This document shows positions 20,865-22,542 of a stretch of 64,000 nt of DNA, one piece after another. The stretch is from contig NZ_JANIOA010000025.1 of assembly GCF_025175675.1 (NCBI RefSeq), positions 1 through 64,000 of the forward strand. Reading direction: 5' to 3'. The notes beneath the pieces were generated by a model. The model ran no database searches and had not been told where the DNA came from. It saw only the letters and a program-made list of their open reading frames with translations. Source of the DNA: Sedimenticola hydrogenitrophicus (GTDB taxonomy: Bacteria > Pseudomonadota > Gammaproteobacteria > Chromatiales > Chromatiaceae). Positions within the stretch are counted from its first letter, which is position 1. Every line of letters begins with the position of its first letter. Position numbers and translations under genes: made by a program.

Positions 20865-22358
20865 CTAGGCTCCTTCACAGCTGTTGTTGTCCAGGCCGGC
20901 CTCGGCCAGCGTCACGGCACGGAACACCGCCCGCCCCTTGTTCATGGTCTCGTCCCACTCCAGCTGCGGCTGTGAGTCGGCCACCACCCCGGCCCCCGCC
21001 TGAATATGTAACTGACAGTCCTTGATCACCGCGGTACGGATAGCGATGGCGGTGTCCATGTTGCCGTTCCAGGAGAGGTAACCCACGGCCCCGGAGTAGA
21101 TGCCGCGTTTCACCGGCTCCAGCTCGTCGATGATCTCCATGGCACGGATCTTGGGTGCCCCGCTGACGGTGCCGGCGGGGAAGGTGGCACGCAGCACGTC
21201 GATGGCGTCCATTCCCTCCTTCAGCTGGCCGGTGACATTGGAGACGATGTGCATCACATGGGAGTAGCGCTCCACGATCATCTTGTCGGTCAGCTTGACG
21301 CTGCCGGTCCTGGCCACCCGGCCGGCGTCGTTGCGCCCCAGGTCGATCAGCATCAGGTGTTCGGCCAGCTCCTTGGGGTCGGCTAACAGCTCCTGTTCCA
21401 GGGCCTGGTCCTCGGCGTCGGTGCGTCCCCGGGGACGGGTACCGGCGATGGGGCGTACCGTCACTTCGCCATCCTCCAGCCGAGTGAGGATCTCCGGTGA
21501 GGAGCCGACGATATGGAAATCCCCCAAGTTGTAGAAATACATGTAGGGGCTCGGGTTGAGCCCGCGCAGCGCCCGGTAGAGATCCAGGGGCCGGGCGTGG
21601 TAGGGGACGGTGAGGCGCTGGGAGATCACCGTCTGCATGCAGTCGCCGTCCAGGATGTAGGCCTTGATCCGCTCCACCGCCTGTTTGAATCCGCGCTCGG
21701 TAAATCCGGAGATGAAATCGGCCTCGTTGATCTGGCGACGCTGTCCGGGCGGTTGATCCGGCAGACACTCGCGCATCCGGCCGACCACGGTCCGCAGCCG
21801 TTTCCGGCCCGATTCGAAGGTCCCGCCCGTGGTCGGGTCCACGTGCACAATCACATAGAGCCGGCCGCGCAGGTTGTCGAATACCACCACCTCGTCGGAG
21901 ACCAGCAGCAGGATGTCCGGGGTGCCGATGGTGTCCGGGTTCGGGCACTCGGCCAGCTTCGGTTCGATATAGCGGATGGTGTCATAGCCGAAGTAGCCCA
22001 CCAGGCCGCCGGTGAAGCGGGGCAGGTCGGGATGACTCGCTACCCGGTAACGCTGCTGGAAGGAGTCGATGAACGCCAGCGGGTCTTCGACCTCGTGGGA
22101 CTCCTCCACGCGGCCGTCGGTCTCGACCGTGATGGTATGTCCGGTCACCCGCAGCAGGGTACGGCAGGGCAGGCCGATGATGGAGTAGCGGCCCCACTTC
22201 TCGCCGCCCTGCACCGATTCCAGCAGGTAGGAGTTGGGGGCATCGGCCAGTTTCAGGTAGACGCTCAATGGGGTGTCCAGGTCGGCCAGCACCTCGCACA
22301 TCAGCGGGATGCGGTTGTGGCCCTGGGCGGCCAGCTGTTCAAATTCTTCAGGTGTCAT
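20865..22358 (-). CDS. trpE: anthranilate synthase component I
   Basis: A 497-residue TrpE converting chorismate to anthranilate with TrpG. Near the N-terminus is [20 protein letters not shown], including the LLES element of the tryptophan feedback site. The catalytic half has [61 protein letters not shown] and GAGVVADS. The ATG chosen has GGAGAGG just upstream; an in-frame GTG four codons earlier overlaps that site. A short ORF with two Trp codons lies 52 bases upstream. Confidence 0.96.
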
Positions 22359-22410
22359 GTGCCTCTCCACACAAGCAAAACTTAAAGACAGGGATAGCGG
22401 GGCGCGGGCA

Positions 22411-22458
22411 TCACCAACGCCATCGGGTTCCGGTCTTGTCTGTCGTGTGGTGGAGCAT
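22411..22458 (-). CDS. trpL: candidate trp leader peptide (15 aa, ends RWRW)
   Basis: Upstream of trpE a short open frame encodes [15 protein letters not shown], with two Trp codons in the last three positions before a TGA. A Trp-rich leader in this place is the hallmark of ribosome-mediated trp attenuation. Its ribosome site is weak, and a possible -10 (CTATAA at 22469-22474) would leave it almost leaderless. No classical terminator hairpin with a T-run follows. The early leader sequence CTCCAC could pair with GTGGAG at the trpE ribosome site, suggesting control of translation instead. The leader is seen; the mechanism is inference. Confidence 0.5.
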
Positions 22459-22542
22459 GCGGAAGGGCTTATAGCTGTTTAAGTTGTGAGGCTAAGATAA
22501 TCGATTCCGGCGCAAGTATCCAGTTTGATCACGCCGCCTTGA

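Follow-up and report, generated by a model that had tools for sequence, protein, structure and literature searches.

Control by tryptophan is the textbook example of transcription attenuation. In the trpL system of Escherichia coli a short leader peptide with Trp codons is encoded upstream of trpE, and stalling on these codons acts as the sensor. In Bacillus subtilis, translation of the rtpA (anti-TRAP) gene is controlled by a leader peptide with Trp codons that is encoded ahead of it. In the ermC-type translational attenuators, stalling of a ribosome on the leader releases a sequestered Shine-Dalgarno (SD) sequence (PMC10219788). The trpEDFBA genes of Campylobacter jejuni are preceded by TrpL, a short ORF with a single C-terminal Trp codon (PMC3847290), and attenuation of trpE in Pseudomonas putida has been reported (Olekhnovich and Gussin 2001, cited in PMC8297930). 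Yet across much of the Gammaproteobacteria the machinery that lies before trpE looks as though it is built for the control of translation.

The window (the whole stretch of DNA analysed, 64,000 nucleotides) comes from a 4.71 Mb draft genome of Sedimenticola hydrogenitrophicus. The gene upstream of trpE is gph. Between them the minus strand from 22458 to 22411 reads ATGCTCCACCACACGACAGACAAGACCGGAACCCGATGGCGTTGGTGA, i.e. 15 codons followed by UGA, with UGG at codons 13 and 15 so that the frame ends Trp-Arg-Trp-stop; the gap from the stop to the ATG of trpE (22358) is 52 nt. Both the frame with this ending and the 52-base distance had been given in a preliminary description of this DNA, and both were found to be correct. 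As in the E. coli trp type, a leader ORF whose codons include those of the regulated amino acid thus precedes the corresponding biosynthetic gene. No good SD sequence was found for the leader ORF in the window. The features of the locus, with the basis for each, are as follows.

22518 to 22523, minus strand: CTGGAT, the -35-like box of the presumed leader promoter (conserved block).
22494 to 22499, minus strand: TATCTT, the -10-like box within the conserved ATCGATTATCTTAG (conserved block).
22434 to 22459, minus strand: arm A, around the start of the leader, with complementarity to the trpE initiation region (helices 22459-22456, 22450-22443 and 22442-22439; swap test).
22411 to 22458, minus strand: the leader ORF (sequence; conservation in the genus; enrichment of in-frame ATG and stop in the family and the class).
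22420 to 22425, minus strand: CGA-UGG (Arg-Trp), invariant, the proposed sensor codons (commonest hexamer at -90 to -50 of trpE).
22393 to 22424, minus strand: the predicted inner hairpin, running from the Trp codon with the leader stop near its top (helices 22424-22418/22399-22393 and 22415-22412/22404-22401; moderate support from the swap test).
22356 to 22379, minus strand: arm D, the trpE SD region and start codon (much of it predicted to be paired in the free RNA, with arm A as the partner).
20865 to 22358, minus strand: trpE, anthranilate synthase component I, the first gene of trpEGDC (ORF list).

Upstream of the leader ORF the minus strand at 22489-22523 carries a conserved CTGGATA..N..TCGATTATCTTAG block that is promoter-like, with a poor match to the sigma-70 -35 element. 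CTGGATA and TTATCTT each occur upstream of the motif in 13 family members and in none of the control regions, and ATCGATT in 20 compared with 1. A scan with the sigma-70 consensus called no promoter, and because the match is weak we infer the role of the CTGGAT box. From the conserved boxes the leader transcript probably starts at about 22487. A transcription start downstream of the ORF would have told against a leader; the conserved promoter-like box is located upstream of it instead.

The regions upstream of trpE were compared in three sets, comprising the family (n = 118), a sample of the class with about one genome per family (n = 91) and named records (n = 80); TrpE was detected in 195 of 210 family genomes. 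The hexamer CGATGG lies 40-110 nt before trpE in 97 of the 118 family regions, 43 of the 91 in the class sample (half of which thus lack the hexamer) and 31 of the 80 named records, compared with 2, 1 and 1 occurrences respectively in a control window of equal size further upstream. It is also the commonest hexamer at -90 to -50 without any pre-selection (family 97, class sample 40, named 29). Other hexamers encoding Arg-Trp are far rarer in the class sample (CGCTGG 8, CGTTGG 4, AGATGG 0), and CGA makes up 4.3% of the Arg codons of trpE genes in the genus and 8.7% in the named set.

The frame in which the hexamer reads CGA-UGG is open back to an upstream ATG in 93% of the family, 93% of the class sample and 83% of the named set, compared with 3-12% for the other frames. 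The next stop codon is no more than 18 nt downstream in 84%, 77% and 81% respectively, compared with 0-16% for the other frames. Within the genus the variable sites of the leader number 5, 2 and 8 at codon positions 1, 2 and 3. By these comparative counts the leader ORF is a real coding frame, beyond chance. A second ORF starting from the AUG within CGAUGG was considered and rejected, as the position of its stop is not conserved and the frame has neither a start nor a stop signal. Frameshifting at CGA-UGG into trpE was likewise rejected, since the frame of trpE relative to the leader varies within the genus (offsets -67, -66 and -65). Three other CGATGGCGNTGGTGA sites were found when further copies of the element were sought in the genome; all lie inside long open frames and are not leaders.

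The leaders usually have 8-17 codons before the CGA and end in RWRW, RWRG, RWRR or plain RW before the stop, and the distance from the stop to trpE has a median of 49-55 nt across the sets. The G-x-R-W-R peptide is conserved within the family, and the third codon positions before the CGA vary. Both TGG codons are kept in all seven genus members in which trpE was found. Conservation of the ORF and its two Trp codons had been put forward as a check on the leader, and this is borne out for the ORF, the CGA-UGG and the position of the stop, but only in part for the Trp codons, as the first TGG alone is invariant in the wider family and the second is not conserved beyond the genus.

About eight family members that lack the motif (L017, L037, L068, L071, L072, L094, L096 and L119) have a gph gene that ends less than 20 nt from, or overlaps, the start of trpE, and have therefore lost a separate leader. 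In L230, L235 and L242 of the named set the leader ORF lacks an early stop codon and terminates shortly past the trpE start (with the tail KGECNDT before the stop), possibly a coupled variant, and in L212 it reads on beyond the trpE start. The leader of L018 in the family ends KRW before the stop, with a perfect TGGTGAAGCTTCACCA palindrome across the stop codon and an enclosing helix of AAACAGGA with TCCTGTTT. The stretch from leader to trpE in L048 of the family set is the same as that of Thiorhodococcus drewsii (L210), which identifies the family as the Chromatiaceae.

The computed minimum-energy fold of the free RNA of the window is one long interrupted hairpin of -39.6 kcal/mol. In this fold the CATG at 22459-22456, which holds the leader start codon, is paired with the CATG at 22359-22356, which holds that of trpE, and the main helix is formed by CCACACGA (22450-22443) with TTGTGTGG (22374-22367). 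The trpE AUG and much of the SD region are paired in the predicted free RNA. In the folds that were computed the predicted helices are nested and do not compete, as those of a mutually exclusive antiterminator would. A pairing of CTCCAC with GTGGAG had been proposed in the preliminary description; the two motifs are both present and complementary, but the main pairing is in a shifted register in the minimum-energy fold. Compared with dinucleotide shuffles, the folds from the leader to the ATG have a mean z of -3.9 for the class, -3.2 for the named set, -1.9 for the family and -1.7 for the window, while for the control region the value is -0.5 to -0.7 across the sets and +0.3 for the window.

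RNAalifold gave no common pairs for a MAFFT alignment of 34 family leaders, because the positions of the helices shift between species, and tests of cognate against swapped pairing were used in its place. Every leader (50 nt before CGATGG) was combined with every trpE initiation region (26 nt plus the ATG) within each set, with the 50-nt segment just upstream as a control for base composition. Taking z as strength against permutation and not as an exact probability, because relatedness among the sequences of a set is uneven, own partners gave -20.4 compared with -13.0 kcal/mol for swapped ones in the class sample (z -14.4), -18.5 compared with -11.2 in the named set (z -11.5) and -21.5 compared with -16.7 in the family after removal of similar leaders (z -9.3). 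No signal was obtained with the upstream control segments (z -1.7 class, +1.0 named, -0.9 family). Complementary arms with different letters are exemplified by ACCUGGAG/CUCCAGGU (L147), CUCACCGU/ACGGUGAG (L148) and CUUUCAAGAAG/CUUCUUGAAG (L161).

The SD or start codon of trpE is paired to the leader in 98% (family), 97% (class) and 96% (named) of full cognate folds, compared with 72%, 67% and 57% of chimeras. The partner of the SD lies within -12 to +24 of the leader AUG in 75 of 90 family members, 35 of 40 in the class sample and 19 of 25 in the named set. The inner hairpin gave swap-test z values of -4.0, -2.4 and -1.3 for the family, class and named sets. On this comparative evidence the pairing between the leader and the trpE ribosome site, for which a check in relatives had been suggested, has persisted across lineages through changes in both partners.

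We consider that the element is probably a tryptophan-responsive translational attenuator of trpE, for which the architecture is drawn from comparison and the switching from inference. Sequestration of the SD and start of the structural gene by leader RNA is supported both by the predicted folds and by co-variation. In the free RNA the leader start region and the ribosome-binding site and start codon of trpE would be paired, each initiation site locking the other. With abundant Trp-tRNA the ribosome would soon complete the leader and leave, allowing the lock to close and leaving trpE untranslated. When Trp-tRNA is scarce the ribosome would pause at the UGG in its A site, CGA being in the P site, and so block the inner hairpin. 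A second ribosome might then fit behind it on the leader start and keep the trpE site open; in the window the P-site CGA lies 33 nt from the leader AUG, about one ribosome length. The inosine-adenosine wobble at the rare CGA in the P site could slow the acceptance of Trp-tRNA and so turn one UGG into a sensitive sensor. It counts against the proposal that about half of the leaders contain one Trp codon only, fewer than is usual for attenuators, and that a good SD sequence is missing from the leader ORF of the window.

In a thermodynamic model, masking the leader as though it were occupied by two queued ribosomes increased the mean probability that the trpE SD is unpaired, from 0.25 to 0.55 for the window and from 0.24 to 0.43 for the family. 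With one ribosome masked it reached 0.33 and 0.27 respectively; in the model a single stalled ribosome barely opens the SD, since the pairing arm is located 5′ to the region it covers. Opening of the SD would therefore depend on an assumed second ribosome, or on co-transcriptional timing or sterics that the calculation leaves out.

Classical transcription attenuation, in which the position of the ribosome chooses between an antiterminator and an intrinsic terminator in the manner of E. coli trpL, would be in keeping with a Trp leader peptide ahead of a biosynthetic target, and the title cited in PMC8297930 reports trpE and trpGDC of P. putida as regulated by attenuation. However, the gap from stop to trpE is about 50 nt, and the co-variation targets the SD and start codon of trpE. 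Moreover, no intrinsic terminator was found between leader and trpE on the trpE strand in the window, in agreement with the earlier remark that an obvious terminator with a T-run is lacking, and the number found in the sets was 0 of 97 for the family, 1 of 43 for the class and 2 of 31 for the named records. Such terminators are absent or rare, so the usual terminator switch is unlikely, and we regard classical attenuation as very improbable indeed. The original guess of translational over transcriptional control is strongly supported by this absence and by the co-variation of leader and SD. Leader translation might instead control Rho-dependent termination or mRNA stability, with the SD lock secondary. 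Rho could act on trpE mRNA that is not being translated, which the same architecture would allow, but a pairing specific to the trpE initiation site would be needless in a purely Rho-based switch. We consider this explanation very unlikely.

The conservation of G-x-R-W-R as a peptide within the family, together with variable third codon positions before the CGA, could reflect a nascent peptide that, through the sequence of its R-W-R tail, halts the ribosome and senses free Trp or another ligand, like TnaC. Basic-x-basic motifs are slow donor/acceptor pairs, which would fit such an arrest. Yet some leaders are very short (MLRWRW before the stop in L020) and many end in plain RW, so that the conserved peptide long enough for the exit tunnel that marks the TnaC type is missing here, neither length nor N-terminus being conserved. 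The arginine is fixed as the codon CGA and not merely as an amino acid, and arrest induced by Trp would make trpE expression rise with Trp, the opposite of what a biosynthetic gene needs. We consider it most unlikely that the leader works in this way. It is less probable still that there is no tryptophan sensing, and that the leader sets a constant rate of translation through structure, re-initiation or coupling. Leader genes can boost downstream translation by re-initiation (PMC4833913), and the frames described above that reach into trpE (L212, and L230, L235 and L242) would be consistent with this. But the gap of about 50 nt is far from the re-initiation peak of 10-13 bp reported for Proteobacteria (PMC4833913), and it is unlikely to be by coincidence that the ORF ahead of the first Trp-specific gene has a fixed Trp codon at its end.

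If the element is a translational attenuator, control in this genome would be exerted without a terminator and without a match to TrpR, for which none was found in the genome by a search that recovers E. coli TrpR. In our literature search we found no description of the translational lock, its spread across the class or the invariant CGA-UGG. In Rfam, including Trp_leader, there was no match at the gathering score in the window, and only chance matches (E 1.1 and 3.8) in the leader region. We tentatively suggest, as a possibility that we would not favor, an ancient class-wide gammaproteobacterial control of trp by translation only, with a mutual lock of initiation sites and a single Trp codon sensitised by the fixed CGA through inosine-adenosine wobble slowing acceptance of Trp-tRNA; this could be the ancestor of transcription attenuators such as E. 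coli trpL. The dozens of lineages provide a clean comparative system for the evolution of attenuators. The invariance of CGA before the Trp codon would make the idea of a slow Arg codon as sensitiser directly testable.

Comparison with the known systems shows both likeness and difference. The leader stop of rtpA is close to the rtpA SD, which is covered by the terminating ribosome, and the sequence, gene and phylum are unrelated. The erm attenuators are induced by antibiotic-dependent arrest by the nascent peptide, whereas the cue proposed here is Trp-tRNA. The RNA of C. jejuni TrpL ends just behind the stop codon, and termination of transcription has been proposed (PMC3847290). E. coli trpL has tandem UGG codons, competing antiterminator and terminator hairpins and a U-tract, whereas the element described here has no terminator, a gap of about 50 nt, often one Trp codon following CGA and a trpE start site that is predicted to be paired. 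A likeness in gene and peptide is seen in Pseudomonadaceae (L290, L296-L354), where the trpE leader MKVIKALARWRWRA has R-W-R-W near its end; presumably these are Pseudomonas leaders, from similarity to a P. aeruginosa TrpE query sequence. Unlike the leaders above, their codons are CGU or CGC and not CGA, and the stop is further from trpE. With attenuation of trpE reported for P. putida, the leader peptide described here thus has a known relative in Pseudomonas. The trpE SD of the Pseudomonadaceae (CCACGAGGCUGAUC) is complementary to a conserved upstream GAUCAG..CGUGG, although the swap test (z -1.1) is uninformative there because the arms are so conserved. This complementarity suggests a possible action on translation for the Pseudomonas 'attenuator' as well.
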